NCBI RefSeq assembly: GCF_004331695.1
Contig: NZ_SJSL01000002.1
Coordinates: 1,054,001-1,118,000, forward strand
Source of the DNA: Pedobacter psychroterrae
Lineage (GTDB): Bacteria; Bacteroidota; Bacteroidia; Sphingobacteriales; Sphingobacteriaceae
Length of the DNA stretch: 64,000 nucleotides
Direction of reading: 5' to 3'
Positions 40,184 to 49,699 of the stretch are shown piece by piece. The position numbers and the translations under genes were made by a program. How positions within the stretch are numbered: position 1 is the stretch's first letter; each line of letters starts with the position of its first letter. Below the pieces are notes generated by a model. It made no database searches. It was not told the origin of the DNA and worked only from the letters and a program-made list of their open reading frames with translations.

Positions 40184-42259
40184 ATGAGAAGAAACAAAAA
40201 TGCCTTTGCAGGTGTAAATTGTGTTTTTTTAACCTTAATAACTACGCTTTTGCTGAGTGGTATAGGTATACCTGTGATTTTACAGGCTCAAACAGTGCCG
40301 GCCCAAAAGGTAGCTGCCCAGCCAGATTCCCTTGATAAAATAAATCAACTGAATGAGGTAGAGATCAGGAAGATCAAAGTAAGCAGGCGACAAACATCCT
40401 CAACACCCTTACAAATATTATCAGGATCGGAACTTCAAAAGTTAAATAGCTTGTCAGTTGCCGATGCTGTCAGGTATTTTTCAGGGGTGCAATTGAAAGA
40501 TTATGGGGGCATAGGGGGGATGAAGACGCTAAACATCCGTAGTTTGGGTACCAACCATACCGGTGTTTTTTATGATGGTATACAACTTGGAAATGCACAG
40601 AACGGACAGGTAGATCTTGGTAAATATTCGCTGGACAACATTGAAGAAATAGCACTTTACAATGGTCAGAAAAGCACCATATTTCAGCCGGCAAAGGGTT
40701 TTGCGACGGCTAGCTCACTTTACTTAAAGGCGCGGCAGCCGGTATTTGAAAAAGATAAAACCTATCTTATAAATGCTTATTTAAAAACGGGCTCTTTTGG
40801 ATTAATCAATCCTTCTGTTTTATGGCAGAACAAGCTTGGTAGCAATTTTAACAGCAGCGTAAATGCTGAATATACCCGGGCAGACGGCAAATATAAGTTT
40901 AGGTATACCAATGGCGTGTATGATACAACTGCAGTGAGAAATAACGGAGATGTAGAAAGAATGCGACTGGAATTGGCACTAAACGGAGTATTGAACGATA
41001 GCAGTACACTCAGCACCAGGGTATACCTATATAGTGATGAGATGGGCCTTCCCGGTGCCATCGTTAGCAACAAATTCAACTACCTGCAACGGACATGGAA
41101 CCAGAACCTGTTTGTACAATCTACCTATCAAAAGGATATTACAAAAAAGTACAGCCTGATGGCCAATGCAAAGTATGGGTATGACTATAACCGTTACCTT
41201 GATCCAGAAAATGTATCGCTGAATGGGCTATTGGACAACCACTATCACCATCAGGAAGTTTATCTGTCGGCTGCAAACCAGTACCATCTTACTAAGTTTT
41301 GGGATCTGGTGCTTTCTGCCGATTACCAGATGAATTCGTTGGATGCTGATGTTTACTTATTTTCTTACCCCACCAGAAATACTTTTTTAACCGCACTGGC
41401 TACGCACCTTAATTTTAAAAACCTGGATGTGCAGGCCAATCTATTGGGTACATATATCCACGACAGGGTGGAGGACGGGACACCTGCTGGTACGAAGCAG
41501 AAGTTAAGCCCTACACTGATGGTTTCATGGCAGCCTTTTAATGGTAAGGAATTTAGAATACGCTCGTTTTATAAGGAAATATTCAGGATGCCTACTTTTA
41601 ACGATTTATATTATACAGATTTTAGAAGAGCTTATATCCGTCCGGAATCTGCCAGGCAGTACGATTTGGGTGTTACCTATATTAAAGTATTTCATAAGAG
41701 CTACTTACAGCAGGTATCTATACAAACAGATGCCTATTACAATGAAGTAAGAGACAAGATAGTGGCCGTTCCGGGCAATAATTCGCAGCGATGGAGCGTA
41801 GAAAATATTGGAGAAGTGGAGATAAAAGGTATTGATGTGAATATACAGACCAATTGGAAAGTACAACCTCTTGATTTTAATGTAGGTATCAATTATACCT
41901 GGCAGCAAGCACTGGATGTAACGCCCTTGTCGATAAACCCAGATTACGGTCGACAAATCCCGTATACGCCTGAGCACAGTGGATCGGTGCTTTTTGCAGC
42001 CTCTTTAAAAAAGCTGTCACTCAATTACAGTTTTATTTATACAGGAGCGCGTTATAACCAGAAAGCAAATATTCCGGTAAATTATATACAGCCCTGGTAC
42101 ACACATGATTTAGCGTTGAATTATTTGACGAAGGTTGCAAAAAGCAAGGTTAGGGTGGGTGCAGAAATAAACAACCTGCTCAACCAGTATTATGACGTGA
42201 TCGCTAATTTTCCAATGCCTGGACGTTCCTTCCGTTTCACTTTAATTTATAGTTATTAA
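40184..42259 (+). CDS. btuB: TonB-dependent outer-membrane receptor for cobalamin (BtuB-like)
   Basis: 691 residues. A signal peptide spans about 1-37. The plug domain follows (about 60-160), with DAVRYFSGVQLKDYGGIGG and LNIRSLGTNHTGVFYDGIQL. The 22-strand-type barrel ends in an aromatic residue, RFTLIYSY. Assignment to B12 rests on the cobalamin riboswitch directly upstream and the BtuG-like genes behind it. It imports substrate across the outer membrane using TonB energy. The next gene starts one base after its stop. Confidence 0.92.
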   Translation: MRRNKNAFAGVNCVFLTLITTLLLSGIGIPVILQAQTVPAQKVAAQPDSLDKINQLNEVEIRKIKVSRRQTSSTPLQILSGSELQKLNSLSVADAVRYFSGVQLKDYGGIGGMKTLNIRSLGTNHTGVFYDGIQLGNAQNGQVDLGKYSLDNIEEIALYNGQKSTIFQPAKGFATASSLYLKARQPVFEKDKTYLINAYLKTGSFGLINPSVLWQNKLGSNFNSSVNAEYTRADGKYKFRYTNGVYDTTAVRNNGDVERMRLELALNGVLNDSSTLSTRVYLYSDEMGLPGAIVSNKFNYLQRTWNQNLFVQSTYQKDITKKYSLMANAKYGYDYNRYLDPENVSLNGLLDNHYHHQEVYLSAANQYHLTKFWDLVLSADYQMNSLDADVYLFSYPTRNTFLTALATHLNFKNLDVQANLLGTYIHDRVEDGTPAGTKQKLSPTLMVSWQPFNGKEFRIRSFYKEIFRMPTFNDLYYTDFRRAYIRPESARQYDLGVTYIKVFHKSYLQQVSIQTDAYYNEVRDKIVAVPGNNSQRWSVENIGEVEIKGIDVNIQTNWKVQPLDFNVGINYTWQQALDVTPLSINPDYGRQIPYTPEHSGSVLFAASLKKLSLNYSFIYTGARYNQKANIPVNYIQPWYTHDLALNYLTKVAKSKVRVGAEINNLLNQYYDVIANFPMPGRSFRFTLIYSY

Positions 42260-42260
42260 T

Positions 42261-43400
42261 ATGCGCATCAATAATTTGAGATATATAGTGGTTATGTTGT
42301 TCGCAGTGGCGTTCCTGGCATCCTGTCGTAAAGACCCTAAGCCAGTTCCGGAGGAGGTAGTAGAAACGCTTTTTCCGGCGGATTTGAATGTGGCTGTTAA
42401 AGGTCTCTACCTGGTTAATGAAGGAAATATGAGCATGAACAAGGCTTCGCTGGATTATGTGGACTTTACTTCGGGTCAATATAGAAGGAATATTTATAAT
42501 CAATCGAACCCTCAGATTACCAAAGGGTTGGGTGATGTAGCGAATGATATAGGCGTATATGGGTCGAAGTTGTATATCGTGGTAAACGGCTCTAACAAGG
42601 TGGAGGTATTGGATGTGAAGACAGGTAGGCGTTTGGGTCAGGTTGACCTGCTGAATCCCCGCTATATCATTTTCAACCAAGGCAAGGTATATGTAAGTTC
42701 TTATCTGGGGCAAATTGGGGATCCGAATGCGCCTAAAGGCATTGTGGCTGAAATAGATACCCTGACTTTAAAAGAAATAAGAAGAACGGAAGTAGGCCGG
42801 CAACCTGAAGAAATGGCGGTGGTTGGCGGTAAACTGTATGTAGCCAATTCAGGAGGGTATAGTCCGGAGAAGTATGAACGGACGATCTCTGTGGTGAGTT
42901 TGGTAACTTTAAAAGAAATCAATACCATTGATGTTGCCATTAATCTGCACCGCTTAAAAGCAGATAAGTATGGAGACTTGTATGTAACCTCCAGGGGCGA
43001 TACTAAAAATATACCGTCCAAATTGTATGTAATCAATACACAAACTGAACAGGTGAAAAAAGTCTTTGATATTTCGGCGGGTAACCTGGCTATCGATGAT
43101 GATCTTGCTTACATCTATAGTGCAGAATTTAACAGCAGTACGGGAATGAATTCCATTTCTTATACCATGCTGAACGTCAAAGATGAAACTTTACTTACTA
43201 CAAAATTCATCACTGATGGCACTGATATTAAACTGCCCTATGGGATAGCCGTGCATCCTGTTACCAAGGAAGTTTTTGTGACCGATGCTACGGATTACGT
43301 CACCCCGGGAGTGCTGTATTGCTTTGATGTTAGTGGTAAGAAGAAATGGTCTGTACAGACCGGTGATATTCCGGCACAATTTGCATTTGTATATAAATAG
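42261..43400 (+). CDS. BtuG-like beta-propeller surface lipoprotein (DUF5074/YncE-type), copy 1
   Basis: 379 residues with lipobox LASC (Cys22), then RKDPKP, a lipoprotein surface-export type signal. The body is a repeated propeller pattern (GVYGSKLYIVVNGSNKVEVLD, AVVGGKLYVANSGG, ISVVSLVTLKEINTIDV). In Bacteroides, BtuG proteins of this architecture sit on BtuB and bind B12 very tightly. The same gene order here, under a cobalamin riboswitch, supports that role. It starts one base after the btuB stop. Confidence 0.85.
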   Translation: MRINNLRYIVVMLFAVAFLASCRKDPKPVPEEVVETLFPADLNVAVKGLYLVNEGNMSMNKASLDYVDFTSGQYRRNIYNQSNPQITKGLGDVANDIGVYGSKLYIVVNGSNKVEVLDVKTGRRLGQVDLLNPRYIIFNQGKVYVSSYLGQIGDPNAPKGIVAEIDTLTLKEIRRTEVGRQPEEMAVVGGKLYVANSGGYSPEKYERTISVVSLVTLKEINTIDVAINLHRLKADKYGDLYVTSRGDTKNIPSKLYVINTQTEQVKKVFDISAGNLAIDDDLAYIYSAEFNSSTGMNSISYTMLNVKDETLLTTKFITDGTDIKLPYGIAVHPVTKEVFVTDATDYVTPGVLYCFDVSGKKKWSVQTGDIPAQFAFVYK

Positions 43401-43419
43401 AAAAATAAAATAAACAACA

Positions 43420-44532
43420 ATGAATAAATCAATTTTCAATTCGGTTAGGTTTGTAGCAGCAGGGCTGATTAGTTTAGCAGTTTTAAGTTCTTGTAAGAAA
43501 GATAAAATGAAGGATCCTGTGGGTGATCCGCTTCCAAAGTCTACACTTGGAGTATATGTCTTGGCAGAGGGTGCTTTCGGTCGGCCAAATAATAGTACCA
43601 TTACTTATTATGATATTGCTAGTAAAGCTGTAGATAAAGACTATTTTAAGACAAAGAACGGTATTGATTTGGGGACTGACGCTAACGACCTAAAGCAATA
43701 TGGTAGTAAAATGTATTGTGTGGTCACCGGAAGTGCCGGTATCATAAACGATGCTTATGTGGAAGTTATCAATATTACTACTGGTAAATCAATTAAAAGA
43801 ATTTCTTTTTCGGATGCCATAGGCGATTTTCATCCTCGCTATATTGTCTTTAATAAAAATAAAGCGTATGTATCTAGCTATGACGGGAATATCAGTAAGA
43901 TCGATACCGCTGCACTGACAATTGAGTCAAGGGTAAAAGTTGGTGGTGCTCTTGAAGGAATGGCTATTGTGAATAATAAACTTTATGTTGCTAACTCTAG
44001 CCATCCTTTTATTATAGATCCAAACAATTCGTCGGTTTCTGTTTTAGACTTAAGCACTTTTACCAAGAAGACAGAGATTCCCGTTAGTTTTAACCCAACT
44101 AAGCTTGCAGCGGCATCTAATGGAGATGTTTATGTGATTACCAGCGGACAGTATTTGCCTGAGATCAAGCCAGCTTTTGAAAGGATCAACACCATTTCAG
44201 ATACAAAAACTCAGACATATGATTTAGGGATTAGTGCTCTTGCAATTGGCGCAAACAAAACATTGGCCATTACTAATTATCCTAATCTCTTAAAAGCGAT
44301 AGACGTAAATACTGGTACCCTCAATGCAGAATTTATTACAGACGCAACACATATTACCTCTCTTTATGCTCTGACTTTCAATCCAATAAATAATGACATA
44401 TTTGTATTTGATGCCACTGATTATTCGGGCGACGGTAAGGCTTTTAGTTTTGATTCCAATGGTAAAAAAACTTTAGAGTTTCCTACCGGTACTGCTCCTA
44501 AAGCTGGAGTTTTTCATTACAGTTACAAATAA
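43420..44532 (+). CDS. BtuG-like beta-propeller surface lipoprotein (DUF5074/YncE-type), copy 2
   Basis: 370 residues, lipobox LSSC (Cys25) followed by KKDKMKD. The propeller repeats align with copy 1: DLKQYGSKMYCVVTGSAG, FNKNKAYVSSYDGNISKID, AIVNNKLYVANSS, TDATHITSLYALTFNPINND. The two copies are diverged, not a recent duplication, which suggests distinct roles, for example different corrinoids or docking to another transporter. It is 19 bases downstream of copy 1 in the same operon. Confidence 0.83.
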   Translation: MNKSIFNSVRFVAAGLISLAVLSSCKKDKMKDPVGDPLPKSTLGVYVLAEGAFGRPNNSTITYYDIASKAVDKDYFKTKNGIDLGTDANDLKQYGSKMYCVVTGSAGIINDAYVEVINITTGKSIKRISFSDAIGDFHPRYIVFNKNKAYVSSYDGNISKIDTAALTIESRVKVGGALEGMAIVNNKLYVANSSHPFIIDPNNSSVSVLDLSTFTKKTEIPVSFNPTKLAAASNGDVYVITSGQYLPEIKPAFERINTISDTKTQTYDLGISALAIGANKTLAITNYPNLLKAIDVNTGTLNAEFITDATHITSLYALTFNPINNDIFVFDATDYSGDGKAFSFDSNGKKTLEFPTGTAPKAGVFHYSYK

Positions 44533-44562
44533 TCATAAATGCTACAATTAAACAAACATCCC

Positions 44563-45660
44563 ATGAGAATAAAACAATACCTGTCCGCTGCCTTAGTTTG
44601 CGTTGCCTTGTTTAGCGCCTGTAAAAAAGATGAACCCGCTGAAAAAGTACCTGAAGTGACTATGTCCATCGAAGGCAATGCCCTGAATGGTAAAGTCAAC
44701 GAGAAAATCGCCTTTGCAGCGGTAAGCCCGAGTGGTAAATCGTATCAACACGAGTGGAAGTTGGATGGCACAGTGAAAAGTACGACAGCTACTTATGATT
44801 TTACACCTGCACAGTCTGGAATATTTATAGTGGAGCATACCGCTACGAACAGCGCCGGTAGTGCCAGTTTTAAATACACGGTGAATGTAGGTGTACCTAC
44901 TGTTCCGGTTACACCTACCAGCAATATGTATGTGACCAATATGTTCGAGTTTTTGCCGGCTCCTGGTCAAAATACCAACAAAACTCTTGGAATTATTACA
45001 GCAGCTGAAAGTCTGAAAGGCAAAAAAGGATTGGTATCTCTTGGTGCATGGGGCGGTTATATCGTGCTGGGTTTTGATCATACGGTGATCAATGAGCCAG
45101 GAAAGGAAGATATCATAGTGTACAACAATGCGCAATCTAACTTTGCTGAGCCAGCTGTGGTTTGGGTAATGCAGGACGAGAATGGCAATGCCAAGCCAGA
45201 TGATACCTGGTATGAACTGAAGGGAAGTGAATTTGGAAAGGAAGGCTATGTGCGCAATTATGAAGTAACTTATACCAAACCTGCGGTAGGGGGTAGTATA
45301 GCATGGAAAGACAACAAAGGTCAAACTGGTACTGTCAATATCTTTAGTGCTTCTTTTCAATCTTTTCCCAACTGGCTAACAGGTACGGAATATACATTAA
45401 AAGGATCTTTACTGCCTACTACCGGTATTAAACCTGGCGGACTGGTTACCAGTATGCCTTTTGGCTTTGGTTATGCAGATAACACAGTTAATGGCGATAA
45501 ACTGGACATTGCAAATGCAATGGATAAAAACGGAAATGCGAAGTCGCTTTCAGGAATTGATTTCATTAAAATCCAGACAGGAATACAGGCGAATTTGGGT
45601 GTTCTGGGTGAATTGTCCACCGAAGTAGTGGGCGTAGCCGATCTTAGCCTTGTTAAATAA
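44563..45660 (+). CDS. PKD-domain surface lipoprotein of the B12 operon
   Basis: 365 residues from ATG 44563 (the ATG at 44539 adds eight residues before the signal peptide). The lipobox is FSAC (Cys20), then KKDEPAE. A PKD/Ig-like domain covers about 32-108 (KIAFAAVSPSGKSYQHEWKL, FIVEHTATNSAGSASFKYTV). A larger C-terminal domain of unknown type runs from about 120 (GAWGGYIVLGFDHTVINEPG, NAQSNFAEPAVVWVMQDENG). Proteins like it occur beside BtuB/BtuG genes in other Bacteroidota. A corrinoid-binding or accessory role is inferred from the operon. Confidence 0.82.
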   Translation: MRIKQYLSAALVCVALFSACKKDEPAEKVPEVTMSIEGNALNGKVNEKIAFAAVSPSGKSYQHEWKLDGTVKSTTATYDFTPAQSGIFIVEHTATNSAGSASFKYTVNVGVPTVPVTPTSNMYVTNMFEFLPAPGQNTNKTLGIITAAESLKGKKGLVSLGAWGGYIVLGFDHTVINEPGKEDIIVYNNAQSNFAEPAVVWVMQDENGNAKPDDTWYELKGSEFGKEGYVRNYEVTYTKPAVGGSIAWKDNKGQTGTVNIFSASFQSFPNWLTGTEYTLKGSLLPTTGIKPGGLVTSMPFGFGYADNTVNGDKLDIANAMDKNGNAKSLSGIDFIKIQTGIQANLGVLGELSTEVVGVADLSLVK

Positions 45661-45690
45661 ATCGTTTGTGTACCAACCCGGAATTTTAGC

Positions 45691-45722
45691 TTGTTTTTAT
45701 ACCAATGAAATACATAACTTTG
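45691..45722 (+). promoter_or_regulatory. Promoter of the DUF6580 gene
   Basis: TTG at 45691-45693 and TAACTTTG at 45715-45722 (exact TAnnTTTG) are 21 bases apart, ending 18 bases before the ATG. The gene can therefore be transcribed apart from the riboswitch-controlled operon. Confidence 0.6.
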
Positions 45723-45740
45723 CTACATAATTAAATAACC

Positions 45741-46322
45741 ATGTCTGATATCAAATTTAATCCCCGTATTCTCGTAGTCTTACTGATTATTGTCTTTATA
45801 AGTGTTATTCGTATTGTGATGCCTTATTCTGATAATTTTGATAGCATTGCTGGATTTTCTGCGGTAGGGGCTATCGCATTATTTGGTGGTGCTTACTTCA
45901 ATACTAATTTCAAGGCTTTTGGTTTTCCACTGGCAATTTTGCTGTTAAGTGATATTTTCATTGCGCAGACTTCCGGGTACGGCTTTTTTTATGCGGGTTG
46001 GTATTGGACGTATATCGCTTTTATACTGATGGTATTTGCAGCTAAGTTTTTGCTGGCAAAAATTAATGTACTAAATTTTGTTACTTCTGTAATTGCTATT
46101 GTATTGATCCACTGGATTGTAAGTGACATTAGCGCCATGTATATTCCCGGATTATATGAGCCTACACTTGCAGGTTATTGGAAGTGCCTGGTAGCAGCGA
46201 TTCCTTTTGAACTGAAATTTTTATATGGTACAGTTATTTACGGTGGCGTAATGTTTGGTGCTTTTGAACTGCTTAAAGTGAAGTATCCTGCATTGAGCCT
46301 GGTAAGAGTTACTGCAAGATAA
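45741..46322 (+). CDS. DUF6580 family multi-span membrane protein, possible ECF-type substrate component
   Basis: 193 residues with about six hydrophobic segments (LVVLLIIVFISVIRIV, GFSAVGAIALFGGAYF, FPLAILLLSDIFIA, YIAFILMVFAAKFLL, FVTSVIAIVLIHWIV and a last one near 165). Size and topology resemble S components of ECF vitamin transporters, including the B12-specific BtuM family. It directly follows the B12 operon, so transport of a corrinoid or its base across the inner membrane is an attractive guess. Only one Cys is present (WKCLVAA). The family function is not established. Confidence 0.8.
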   Translation: MSDIKFNPRILVVLLIIVFISVIRIVMPYSDNFDSIAGFSAVGAIALFGGAYFNTNFKAFGFPLAILLLSDIFIAQTSGYGFFYAGWYWTYIAFILMVFAAKFLLAKINVLNFVTSVIAIVLIHWIVSDISAMYIPGLYEPTLAGYWKCLVAAIPFELKFLYGTVIYGGVMFGAFELLKVKYPALSLVRVTAR

Positions 46323-46339
46323 GCAACTCCAAAATAATA

Positions 46340-46370
46340 TCGTCATCCTGAATTTATTTCAGGATGACGA
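46340..46370. repeat. Perfect palindrome between convergent genes
   Basis: The arms TCGTCATCCTGAA (46340-46352) and TTCAGGATGACGA (46358-46370) surround a 5-base loop. There is no T run. The GTCATCCTGAA sequence resembles dispersed palindromes common between genes in Bacteroidota. It may act as a terminator for both flanking genes. Confidence 0.75.
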
Positions 46371-46397
46371 TCGTTTAGATCAATTCTCGCGATCTGC

Positions 46398-48131
46398 TTA
46401 AAATAGTGTAATCCCTGCATTCCAGCCCCACCAACCTTTAATGTCGCCTGTATAAGCATGATGTTTAGCAGGCGCTACCTGTTGCTTGTATCCCTTTGCA
46501 GCTGATCCAACAGGCGCTTCACTGGTATATACAGAGTAAACCGGCCCGCCGAAAATAGTCAGCCCTTTAAAAATCTGTATCTGGAGGTTGGCCTGAAACC
46601 GGTTCAGGAAGTTTGCATAATCCCAGTTGCCGATGTAGACATATTGTGAGGAGTACTCTCCGGCTATGGAAACTTTATTGCTAAAGATAAAATCGTGTCC
46701 AAAGCCAAAGCCCATTGTTTCCAGTCGGGCGGTATCGGAATAATTCTTACCCACAAACAGGACGTTGTAGAGGTTGGCATTGCCCATTTTAAATGCAGCA
46801 TTTGCATTAAAAATCTCATTGGAGGATAGGCTGACCTTATGATATCCATGGCTTGCATAATTGATAAGGCCTATGCTGTAACCTGTGTTAGTGCCAGAAA
46901 TGTTGATTACGCCAAATTGCACACCGGTCATCTCTTTTGCATAATTCAGTAAGCCTGATATTTGGATACCTCTCTGTTTACGGGAAGCAAAATTGAGCAA
47001 TCCGGCCAACTGTACGCCATCCATAGAGCCGCTTACAATGTTACCCAGTCCGGCTGCCTGCGTGCCTCTGATATTTTTAGAAACAATATTTCCGAGTCCT
47101 GCCAGTTGTACACCTTCTGCGTCTTTCACTACATGATTTACCAATCCGGCGGCCTGTACCCCTTTCATATCGGTTCGTACATCATTTACCAGTCCTGCGA
47201 GTTGTATCCCTTCTACTGAACCTCCTATGGTATTAAACAGACCTGCGGCCTGAAATTTCTTAACGTCGCCTTTGCTGATGTTAAATAATCCTGCCAGTTC
47301 AATTCCATTAACTCCTGCAGTATAGCCACCTAGTATATTTAAAGAAGCCTTGTTTACTACCTGTGAACTCATGATGCCATGCGAACTAAGCCCCGGTATC
47401 AGCGAAGCCTGAAAGGGACTATTAGCAAAAAAACCGGGAATGTTTAAGCTTTGGAACCGCTGCTTTGAAGAAATAAAAAACCTGCTGATTCCCGAGTTTT
47501 CAATAGAGTTAAAAAACCCTTTTACGTACTCACTGTTTTTGTCCTTATATCCTTCGGGCTTTACCTTAATGTCAGACAGGAAGACCAGGGAAGTATCTCT
47601 GTAAAACTCCTTACTTGCCGTAAGGATCACCGTGCTGTGTTCGCCTTTAAAACGCAATCTGAAATATCCTTCATCGTCAGTTAGTGTAGATTGCAGCAGT
47701 CGCTTTTCATAGACACTGGCTTGTTTTACTTTTTTGCCGGTTTCTGTATCTATGATATATCCGCTGATCATGTAGAGGTTTTCTGCAGTGGTAATGTTCT
47801 CTGGCTCAATGGTTAGCCTTGAGGCGGCATAGCGTAAGATAACGTATTCACCGGTTTCTCTGTAGTCTACCTTACCGTCAAATAGCTTGTCCAGTACATC
47901 CCTCACGGGAGCCTCTTTTACTTTCAAACTTACGAGGCTGTCCTGCTTGAATAACGCACCGTTATAAGAGAAATAGAAATCACCTGCCTTGCTTACCCTC
48001 TCCAGCACATCGCCCACTTTTTCCTGGTTGATGTTCATACTAACCAGTTTGTCCAGGTTGTGCTGAAATGCCTTTTGAGCATTGGCAAAGCAGGTTAGTG
48101 AGAGCAGGATAAGCGTTAATTGTAGTTTCAT
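46398..48131 (-). CDS. STN-domain and carboxypeptidase-regulatory-domain protein with 16-residue surface repeats
   Basis: 577 residues. A signal peptide (about 1-18) is followed by an STN domain (about 40-95, VSMNINQEKVGDVLERVSKA and APVRDVLDKLFDGKVDY). A carboxypeptidase-regulatory-like beta sandwich (about 122-195) precedes at least eight repeats of 16 residues of the form AGLxN...GxQ (about 280-420). The C-terminal region looks barrel-like. STN domains normally pass signals from TonB receptors to FecR; here the FecR gene overlaps this one by 4 bases, but no TonB receptor barrel is present. The repeats resemble the LA_2272 surface-repeat family. Confidence 0.85.
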   Translation of the reverse strand: MKLQLTLILLSLTCFANAQKAFQHNLDKLVSMNINQEKVGDVLERVSKAGDFYFSYNGALFKQDSLVSLKVKEAPVRDVLDKLFDGKVDYRETGEYVILRYAASRLTIEPENITTAENLYMISGYIIDTETGKKVKQASVYEKRLLQSTLTDDEGYFRLRFKGEHSTVILTASKEFYRDTSLVFLSDIKVKPEGYKDKNSEYVKGFFNSIENSGISRFFISSKQRFQSLNIPGFFANSPFQASLIPGLSSHGIMSSQVVNKASLNILGGYTAGVNGIELAGLFNISKGDVKKFQAAGLFNTIGGSVEGIQLAGLVNDVRTDMKGVQAAGLVNHVVKDAEGVQLAGLGNIVSKNIRGTQAAGLGNIVSGSMDGVQLAGLLNFASRKQRGIQISGLLNYAKEMTGVQFGVINISGTNTGYSIGLINYASHGYHKVSLSSNEIFNANAAFKMGNANLYNVLFVGKNYSDTARLETMGFGFGHDFIFSNKVSIAGEYSSQYVYIGNWDYANFLNRFQANLQIQIFKGLTIFGGPVYSVYTSEAPVGSAAKGYKQQVAPAKHHAYTGDIKGWWGWNAGITLF

Positions 48132-49087
48132 CTCAGTTTAGACAACAGTATTTGGTTTCCGTTACGTGTTACTTTCAGGTCCATTGTTTGTTGGAGTATT
48201 TTTAGATTTTGGTTCAGCGAGTATTTAATGAGAAAAGTACTTTTTACCGTCATCGCATCAATGGAAGGGTCGTCGGTCTTAATATCTACACCGTAAACAT
48301 CTTCCAGTATTTCTGCTATTTTTAAAATAGGCGTATTATTTGCAATGATCACCCCGCTGTGATAGTAATTGTATACCTGATCTGTGTTTTTTTCTTTCAG
48401 CAGTTCGGGGTTTTTATCTCTGATCACTACTTTTTCTCCCCTGCGCAATTCTACTTCTTCTCTACCCACGGAAACCCTCACGATTCCTGATTCCACATTT
48501 ACTTCCGTTTCACCCGCCTGGTGCTTGACATTAAATGAAGTACCCACTACGGTAACAGATACCTGGTCTACATCGATCACGAAAGGCTTGCTTTCGTCAT
48601 GGGCCACATTGAAGAACACATCACCTTTTTTAAGGCGCAAACTTCTGTTTCTGGTGAAATTGCTGGCATAACTGATCGCTGAGTTTTTATTCAATGTGAT
48701 TTCAGATCCATCGGGTAGTTTTTCTTTAATAATCTGGTTTTTAGCCGTTAAGTCGGTGTAGGTTACAGGATTTAATAAATTGTATCCAAGCCATATACCC
48801 GCTACCAATGTAATCATAGCGGCCACCTTCATCCAGGTATATTTCTTCAGCGGACGTACTATTGCCTCTTTTTTTACGGCGGCTGTTCTTTCTTTAAACT
48901 TCTGCCAGGCCTGTTCTTCATCTACCTTACTTTTCACAGCAAGGCTCTTGCCGGCATCCCAGATCTTTTCAAACTGCAGGTAATAAACTTCATTCGCAGC
49001 ATCTTCGGCCAGCCAGTTTTTTACTGCTGCGTTTTCCTCCTCAGTGCTTTCTTTTAGAAGATATTTTATCAATAATTCATCTTTCAT
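48128..49087 (-). CDS. FecR family anti-sigma factor
   Basis: 319 residues. A cytoplasmic N-terminal part (about 1-80) includes EENAAVKNWLAED. A single membrane helix lies near 85-105 (VAAMITLVAGIWLGYNLL). The periplasmic FecR domain (about 110-215) has LPDGSEITLNKNSAISYA and VVGTSFNVKHQAGETEVNVESGIVRVS, and a DUF4974-type tail (about 245-315) has NNTPILKIAEILEDVYGV. It relays a periplasmic signal from an STN domain to the sigma factor. It starts 9 bases after the sigma gene. Confidence 0.94.
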   Translation of the reverse strand: MKDELLIKYLLKESTEEENAAVKNWLAEDAANEVYYLQFEKIWDAGKSLAVKSKVDEEQAWQKFKERTAAVKKEAIVRPLKKYTWMKVAAMITLVAGIWLGYNLLNPVTYTDLTAKNQIIKEKLPDGSEITLNKNSAISYASNFTRNRSLRLKKGDVFFNVAHDESKPFVIDVDQVSVTVVGTSFNVKHQAGETEVNVESGIVRVSVGREEVELRRGEKVVIRDKNPELLKEKNTDQVYNYYHSGVIIANNTPILKIAEILEDVYGVDIKTDDPSIDAMTVKSTFLIKYSLNQNLKILQQTMDLKVTRNGNQILLSKLR

Positions 49088-49096
49088 CTGCTTTCC

Positions 49097-49699
49097 CTAT
49101 TTAAAAAAATCTTTGTAATACGTTATTATTTGCGGCAAGCTATAGCCGGCATAGGTGCTGACCATTAAGGCAATCACCGTTATAAAATCTGCCAGTTTGA
49201 TGCGCAATATCCTTAGTGCTTTGCCCATCTGGTTTTCTATGGTCTTTACCGAAAGGCCCAGTTGGTCTGCGATCTCCCTATATTTCAGCTCCTCAAACCT
49301 ACTCATCTGAAATATCGTCCTGCACTGTTCCGGAAGTTCCTTTAACGCCTCCTGCAGCCTGGTTTCAAGTTCCGTTAACTCCACTTTGGATGAGGCTGGT
49401 TCATAATGGTCATTCATACTATGTACGGCATAATCCTGGTACTTTATTTTAATGGTCTGATGTTTCAGGTAGTTCAGGCTGTCGTTGTGTACACATTTGT
49501 ATAAATACGCTTTGATGGAAGTCTGGACATTCATCAGCGAGCGTTTCTCCCAGAATTTCAGGAACATAGACTGCACAATTTCTTCTGCAGTGTCTTCATC
49601 CCTCAGCATCACGCTTGCATAGGCATGCAAGGCTTTGTAATGGGATTTGAACATCTGTTCAAAAGCACTGTCATCGTAAAGTGTTAATGTATCGGTCAC
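49097..49699 (-). CDS. ECF RNA polymerase sigma factor, Bacteroidetes sigma-70 family
   Basis: 200 residues. Region 2 is near 18-85 (YASVMLRDEDTAEEIVQSMFLKFWEKR) and region 4 near 120-170 (LKELPEQCRTIFQMSRFEELKYREIADQLGLSVKTIENQM). A C-terminal hydrophobic segment (about 177-193, FITVIALMVSTYAGYSL) is unusual in length for a cytoplasmic sigma factor and may tether it to the membrane. It is the first gene of the sigma-fecR-STN repeat cassette. Confidence 0.93.
   Translation of the reverse strand: MTDTLTLYDDSAFEQMFKSHYKALHAYASVMLRDEDTAEEIVQSMFLKFWEKRSLMNVQTSIKAYLYKCVHNDSLNYLKHQTIKIKYQDYAVHSMNDHYEPASSKVELTELETRLQEALKELPEQCRTIFQMSRFEELKYREIADQLGLSVKTIENQMGKALRILRIKLADFITVIALMVSTYAGYSLPQIITYYKDFFK

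Follow-up and report, generated by a model that had tools for sequence, protein, structure and literature searches.

BtuCDF, an ATP-binding cassette (ABC) importer of the FecCD type, carries corrinoids from the periplasm to the cytoplasm and is encoded beside btuB and btuG. In gut Bacteroides, BtuB, BtuG and BtuH form riboswitch-controlled uptake systems (PMC10404256, PMC8941943). According to PMC6072759, most membrane proteins of vitamin B12 uptake still await identification, and B12 auxotrophs with BtuB and without BtuCDF exist. BtuM of Thiobacillus denitrificans (PMC6072759; PDB 8c7p, 8ovv), a protein of ~20 kDa with the six-helix fold of S-components, is found with btuB in organisms that have neither BtuCDF nor an energy-coupling factor (ECF) module, and solitary BioY biotin carriers of this fold have been reported to transport without an ECF module (PMC11109136). 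Here, we describe a B12 operon in the window, a stretch of 64,000 nucleotides (nt) of contig NZ_SJSL01000002.1 from Pedobacter psychroterrae. Its last gene encodes a six-helix membrane protein of 193 amino acids (aa) assigned to Pfam family DUF6580 (PF20221; 45741-46322, + strand; 157.4 bits, cut-off 27), a candidate solitary corrinoid carrier. The initial annotation had named DUF6580 as a possible B12 or corrinoid carrier, a proposal now strongly supported by its predicted fold, its linkage to cobalamin riboswitches and a distribution complementary to that of FecCD. With a probability of about 0.84, DUF6580 would be an ATPase-free, BtuM-like corrinoid carrier at the inner membrane and a non-orthologous replacement of BtuCD across Bacteroidota.

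Compared with these systems, the window operon has BtuB, BtuG and BtuH similar to those of gut Bacteroides and is likewise associated with a riboswitch, yet its one operon encodes two BtuG copies plus BtuH as a protein of its own, with DUF6580 taking the place of BtuFCD. The transport step proposed for DUF6580 is that of BtuCDF, from periplasm to cytoplasm and beside btuB and btuG, whereas the DUF6580 model needs no ATPase or binding protein, and FecCD and DUF6580 are nearly exclusive. DUF6580 shares with BtuM its size, its predicted six-helix S-component fold and its occurrence with btuB where BtuCDF and an ECF module are lacking. However, the two proteins are only 11% identical in structural alignment, and BtuM is reported mostly from Proteobacteria (PMC6072759), while DUF6580 was found here in Bacteroidota. 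BioY has the same fold but carries biotin, and it scores lower against the DUF6580 fold (VIA-align Z 11.2 to 11.7, PDB 4dve).

The host genome (assembly of 5.1 Mb, rated 99.97% complete) is predicted to use B12, as it encodes a MetH frame of 1226 aa with a Met_synt_B12 domain and, in two further frames of 1131 and 140 aa, B12-binding domains over the cut-off. Of the known inner-membrane B12 importers searched for, none was found in this genome; BtuM was not searched for. FecCD (BtuC-type) permeases gave 0 matches in a search that was positive in 13 of 14 control genomes, and neither CbiQ/EcfT (positive in 10/14 controls) nor ABC_membrane_2 of the BacA kind (2/14) was detected. DUF6580 would therefore have to act alone, like BtuM. 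The absence of BtuCDF-type genes, seen by the initial annotation within the window, thus extends genome-wide for the permease, leaving one orphan BtuF-like protein (Peripla_BP_2) encoded elsewhere in the genome, in which no signal peptide was seen by eye. De novo corrin synthesis in the host was considered and rejected, as its marker CbiC is absent (controls positive in 7/14). A second cobalamin riboswitch of the host (G000:C15:22089-22284; loci L003 and L034) was considered as the head of another uptake operon and rejected as well, since the 775-aa frame ~0.2 kb downstream is metE, the B12-independent methionine synthase (named by eye).

The initial annotation had proposed a survey of whether DUF6580 accompanies the loss of btuCDF, and this revealed near mutual exclusion of DUF6580 and FecCD. 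Among 296 evenly drawn Bacteroidota genomes, 118 encode DUF6580 (a match of E 3.6e-4 over 77 positions in genome G062 was left out and would make 119). Both families occur in 18 genomes, DUF6580 only in 100, FecCD only in 175 and neither in 3 (Fisher p 1.3e-55, a value that ignores kinship). Here, 18 weak FecCD matches (E between 1.2e-14 and 4.3e-4, compared with 2.3e-55 for the least of the strong matches) were counted as absent; counting them as present changes the numbers to 35 with both, 83 with DUF6580 only, 176 with FecCD only and 2 with neither. By family majority, 22 families have DUF6580, 26 FecCD, 2 both and 0 neither. The weak FecCD matches (18 genomes, e.g. G037, G064 and G196) are almost confined to genomes with DUF6580 (17/18).

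Nearly all of the 118 DUF6580 genomes show signs of B12 uptake or use: 107 encode MetH and 116 have a cobalamin riboswitch, while CbiC was found in 0. The genome-wide Rfam riboswitch search used stricter filters, which weak riboswitches may escape. Of the 97 genomes that encode MetH and lack CbiC as well as FecCD, 94 carry DUF6580 (exceptions G136, G256 and G280), compared with 13 of the 164 genomes that have MetH and FecCD and lack CbiC. Differing DUF6580/FecCD states were also found inside single families (f1, f14 and f23). In the family of the window (f1), only one of the eight sampled genomes (G002) lacks DUF6580; it also lacks a cobalamin riboswitch and MetH and, judging from this gene content, seems to have given up B12. 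One FecCD permease is retained in G002.

Linkage to cobalamin riboswitches was assessed in 127 DUF6580 loci of the 118 genomes, each with up to 8 kb upstream and less at contig ends, counting two adjacent DUF6580 pieces on G171:C123 as one locus. In 43 loci from 14 families, DUF6580 has a cobalamin riboswitch upstream in the same orientation, and in one further locus the riboswitch is on the other strand; chance alone would give ~0.2 linked loci by our estimate, based on 1-2 riboswitches per 4-Mb genome. Of these 43, 23 were found with the Rfam model itself, and the other 20 were all confirmed with it (20/20) after detection with model R1, built from 27 riboswitches drawn from 24 of the 127 loci themselves, all 24 found by the Rfam model in its genome-wide search. 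In eight loci of four families, the riboswitch ends 64-167 nt upstream of DUF6580, which is thus the gene directly following it. The order riboswitch, btuB, BtuG-like frame and DUF6580 recurs in nine other linked loci from six families (f34, f20, f14, f26, f36 and f1; loci L047, L049, L074, L086, L090, L098, L103, L122 and L128), with weak BtuG matches in L047 and L128 (39 and 33 bits).

Within Pedobacter and its close relatives, an upstream riboswitch was found for 64 of 80 DUF6580 loci, at a distance of 2.0-2.1 kb in 48 of the 64. The gene in between was compared for L186 and, from the phylum sample, for L039; its best match is the B12 receptor model TIGR01779 (E 1.6e-79 and 5.5e-99, respectively), although neither reaches the model cut-off. 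Of the 16 unlinked loci in this group, many come from near relatives of the window, in which the riboswitch would be farther away than the 7 kb fetched, and several are at contig borders. The closest match to the window protein in the scan of genome contigs is from Pedobacter frigoris (74% identity), and DUF6580 had no match in phage records. Directly 3' of DUF6580, eight of the 43 linked loci have a BtuF-like gene (L117, L119, L120, L121, L129, L132, L088 and L095), whose product is a Peripla_BP_2 protein with no signal peptide by eye in the one member examined. Other neighbors in the linked loci, each named from one member, are a DUF71 protein (nine loci) and a Sir2 protein (five loci); bacterial DUF71 genes have earlier been tied to B12 salvage through gene neighborhood (PMC3541065). 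In four genomes of family f30 (L094, L100, L104 and L118), DUF6580 is flanked by tandem cobalamin riboswitches, one 5' and one 3'.

Structural prediction with AlphaFold2 was used for the window protein (81 sequences; mean predicted local distance difference test score, pLDDT, 85.4; predicted template modeling score 0.81) and for a second DUF6580 that is 42% identical to it (L243; pLDDT 89.6). Both models returned BtuM as the best PDB match in the comparison suggested by the initial annotation. For the window model, BtuM was the top PDB match in Foldseek (probability 1.00, template modeling scores 0.65/0.70), and VIA-align gave Z 14.4 and 14.1 for BtuM, with other S-components from 13.0 down, a MreD chain at 9.4, cobalt/metal ECF subunits at 9.3 and 8.8, and rows without the S-component fold beginning at 6.6. 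The L243 model gave Z 14.5 twice for BtuM, the next match being 13.0. The alignments of the two models with BtuM cover 168-170 residues with a root-mean-square deviation of 3.3-3.4. DUF6580 is thus predicted to have an S-component fold, with BtuM as its nearest structure in the PDB. Helical bundles may reach Z ~13 in VIA-align through common arrangement, and the fold by itself is therefore insufficient for the case.

Residue conservation was counted in 123 of the 127 frames (L112, L139, L147 and L157 were excluded for length or a lacking start). R24, D71 and Y91 are nearly invariant, being found in 121, 122 and 123 of the 123 sequences, respectively. In BtuM, the conserved pocket residues are H28, D67, Y85 and R153. 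In view of these pocket residues, D71 and Y91 are suggestive, but no more than a lead.

Several observations weigh against a BtuM-like corrinoid carrier. A common fold does not demonstrate a common function, the Foldseek E-values are weak (0.26 for the window model and 0.9 for the L243 model), and a sequence profile built from 50 of 64 selected DUF6580 sequences had no match among PDB chains at E <= 10. BtuM has an invariant cobalt-binding cysteine, Cys80, in loop 3 (PMC6072759), whereas the cysteine of DUF6580, C149, which the model places between helix 5 and helix 6, is not invariant, its column holding Cys in 88 and Ser, the next commonest, in 27 of 123 sequences. DUF6580 was not placed in the BtuM family, since the cysteine varies and the profile search gave no link by sequence; this exclusion leaves the claim that DUF6580 works in a BtuM-like manner undiminished. 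In addition, 11 of the 118 DUF6580 genomes lack a MetH domain, and 18 also have a strong FecCD match. In four of these 18 genomes (G065, G077, G108 and G191), FecCD and riboswitch are, among the matches listed, separated by more than 0.5 Mb or located on separate contigs, a placement as expected for siderophore permeases. Since FecCD is not specific to BtuC, the genomes with FecCD only are not proven to import B12 through FecCD. Shared ancestry inflates the DUF6580/FecCD counts, no riboswitch lies upstream in the stretch read for 84 of the 127 loci, and DUF6580 neighbors in the large family f23 are mostly without a visible B12 link (by eye). The initial annotation had regarded DUF6580 genes lying mostly beside unrelated genes, in genomes that lack B12 uptake, as evidence against its proposal; the 84 unlinked loci agree with the first half of that description, whereas the riboswitches (116/118) and MetH (107/118) of the genomes contradict the second.

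These points bear differently on the alternatives. The exclusion of DUF6580 and FecCD could mostly reflect shared ancestry, with DUF6580 being a membrane protein or sensor loosely tied to B12, as the states largely track families, FecCD is not BtuC-specific, two thirds of the DUF6580 loci lack riboswitch linkage and the S-component fold has also been linked to receptors (PMC11109136). We consider this very improbable, given the differing states within f1, f14 and f23, the riboswitch linkage in 14 families and the eight loci where DUF6580 comes first after the riboswitch; moreover, DUF6580 genomes would then use B12 without a known importer. Alternatively, DUF6580 may carry a B12-related compound that is not an intact cobamide, for example cobinamide, cobalt or the base of a lower ligand, while B12 enters by an unrecognized route. 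S-components serve many substrates, CbiM-type subunits reach Z 9.3 against the model, and the riboswitch governs cobalamin-related genes generally, but DUF6580 occupies the place of the missing FecCD (94/97) and has BtuM as its best structural match, making a different cargo improbable. In particular, DUF6580 is unlikely to supply cobalt for corrin synthesis, because CbiC was found in 0 of the 118 DUF6580 genomes. Finally, DUF6580 may not be solitary but require an energizing partner, either a distant ECF-type module or another ABC ATPase. Most S-components operate with an ECF module, and eight DUF6580 genomes possess CbiQ/EcfT (genome G001, with CbiQ below the cut-off, was not counted), yet 110 of 118, the host included, lack it, and BtuM functions in E. 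coli without an ECF module (PMC6072759); a partner therefore appears unlikely.

In the window, the operon parts described by the initial annotation, namely a cobalamin riboswitch, btuB, two propeller lipoproteins and DUF6580, were all recovered by Rfam, Pfam or PDB matches. The riboswitch (RF00174; 39883-40088, + strand; cmscan 104.1 bits, gathering score 31.5, full model 1-189) lies slightly 5' of position 40184, from which that annotation had reckoned the operon, and the operon is probably under its control. The gene btuB (40184-42259, + strand) encodes a TonB-dependent B12-type receptor of 691 aa with a Plug domain, matching the B12 receptor model TIGR01779 at E 7.3e-30 and 104 bits, which is under the model cut-off of 599.7. 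It is followed on the + strand by the BtuG-like propeller lipoproteins copy a (42261-43400), which starts 2 nt past the end of btuB, and copy b (43420-44532), and by a BtuH-like lipoprotein (44539-45660).

Both propellers match DUF5074 in Pfam, have a lipobox by eye and are closest to BtuG1 of Bacteroides thetaiotaomicron (8blw; E 5.4e-46 for copy a and 5.1e-46 for copy b), with weaker matches to BtuG2 structures. They are 31% identical to each other and fall into two clades (a and b) of the BtuG tree, with support of 0.86 and 0.73. Clade a and clade b proteins occur together in 16 loci besides the window, and a single BtuG beside btuB is of type a (L196, L201, L202, L203, L218, L236 and L244). 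The two copies are maintained paralogues; copy a would act as the BtuB lid, whereas copy b, like BtuH, would be an additional catcher. The further suggestion of the initial annotation, that the propellers are specialized for different corrinoids, found no support. In BtuG2, the lower ligand is exposed and points away from the protein, which binds cyano- and adenosylcobalamin as well as cobinamide (PMC10404256), and the idea thus needs direct evidence.

The third lipoprotein had been described as a PKD protein, and its N-terminal part does have a weak, PKD-like match below the cut-off; its identity as BtuH, however, had not been recognized. Residues 123-370 match the H-domain of BtuG1 (8blw; E 4.5e-48) and residues 133-370 match BtuH2 (7biz; E 1.8e-47), identifying it by homology as BtuH with a C-terminal, putative B12-binding H-domain. 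In BtuH2, the H-domain is the B12-binding part (PMC8941943). An assignment as DUF4465 (BtuJ) was rejected, as the Pfam scan gave no DUF4465 and the match is to BtuH. In the clade of the window (L166-L184), DUF6580 is preceded by as many as three frames each of the btuG-like and the btuH-like kind, in varying order, as if surface catchers had been gained and lost often.

A promoter-like element precedes DUF6580 at 45691-45722 (+ strand), consisting of TTG, 21 nt and TAACTTTG. The latter, a Bacteroidota-type -7 element, lies 26-43 nt 5' of the DUF6580 start codon in all 21 sequences compared (the window and L166-L185), which argues for a separate promoter of DUF6580 in this clade. The initial annotation had also given DUF6580 its own promoter; this stands for TAACTTTG but not for TTG, whose usual upstream spacing fitted in only 2/21 sequences. 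A plain sigma-70 promoter scan of the operon gave 17 sites against 20.1 expected. With its own promoter, the inner-membrane step may therefore run once the riboswitch has lowered the outer-membrane step. Downstream of DUF6580, a 14-pair inverted repeat (46339-46371, strand undefined, called on the - strand) separates it from a convergent gene and is possibly a terminator shared by the two; the terminator-like scan of the region gave 9 sites against 5.3 expected. The convergent stretch (46398-49699, - strand) encodes a protein that contains GIQLAGLVN-like repeats and weakly matches CarbopepD_reg_2 and STN, together with an anti-sigma factor (FecR) and a factor of the sigma-70 family.

Taken as a pathway, BtuG a and b and BtuH would catch corrinoids at the cell surface and pass them to BtuB, as their homology to the B. 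thetaiotaomicron proteins suggests, and BtuB would move the corrinoid over the outer membrane into the periplasm. DUF6580 would then carry it across the inner membrane without an ATPase, as proposed for BtuM, and adenosylation may keep the corrinoid in the cell, as may its binding to enzymes or to a BtuF-like receptor in the cytoplasm. It could be speculated that DUF6580 is the main inner-membrane B12 importer of ~40% of Bacteroidota genomes (118/296), with uptake pulled by a BtuF-like receptor relocated to the cytoplasm, but this extended version is rather doubtful. The BtuF-like gene after DUF6580 in 8/43 linked loci is in line with it, as is the host, which keeps one Peripla_BP_2 protein without a visible signal peptide and has no FecCD. 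On the other hand, the BtuF-like gene is outside the window operon, and the genomes of L088 and L095 also have FecCD.

A literature search that did not extend to preprints and most subscription papers found no paper for 'DUF6580' or 'PF20221', and among the matches listed, none named another inner-membrane B12 carrier for these bacteria. If it is a solitary B12 carrier of the S-component kind, DUF6580 would close the inner-membrane gap in B12 uptake for 118 of the 296 genomes sampled, a large part of Bacteroidota, and an unnamed Pfam family would gain a function. In metabolic reconstructions that rely on BtuCDF to score importers, B12 exchange would change accordingly, and a second family of solitary S-component-like carriers would become available for studying ATP-free vitamin transport.

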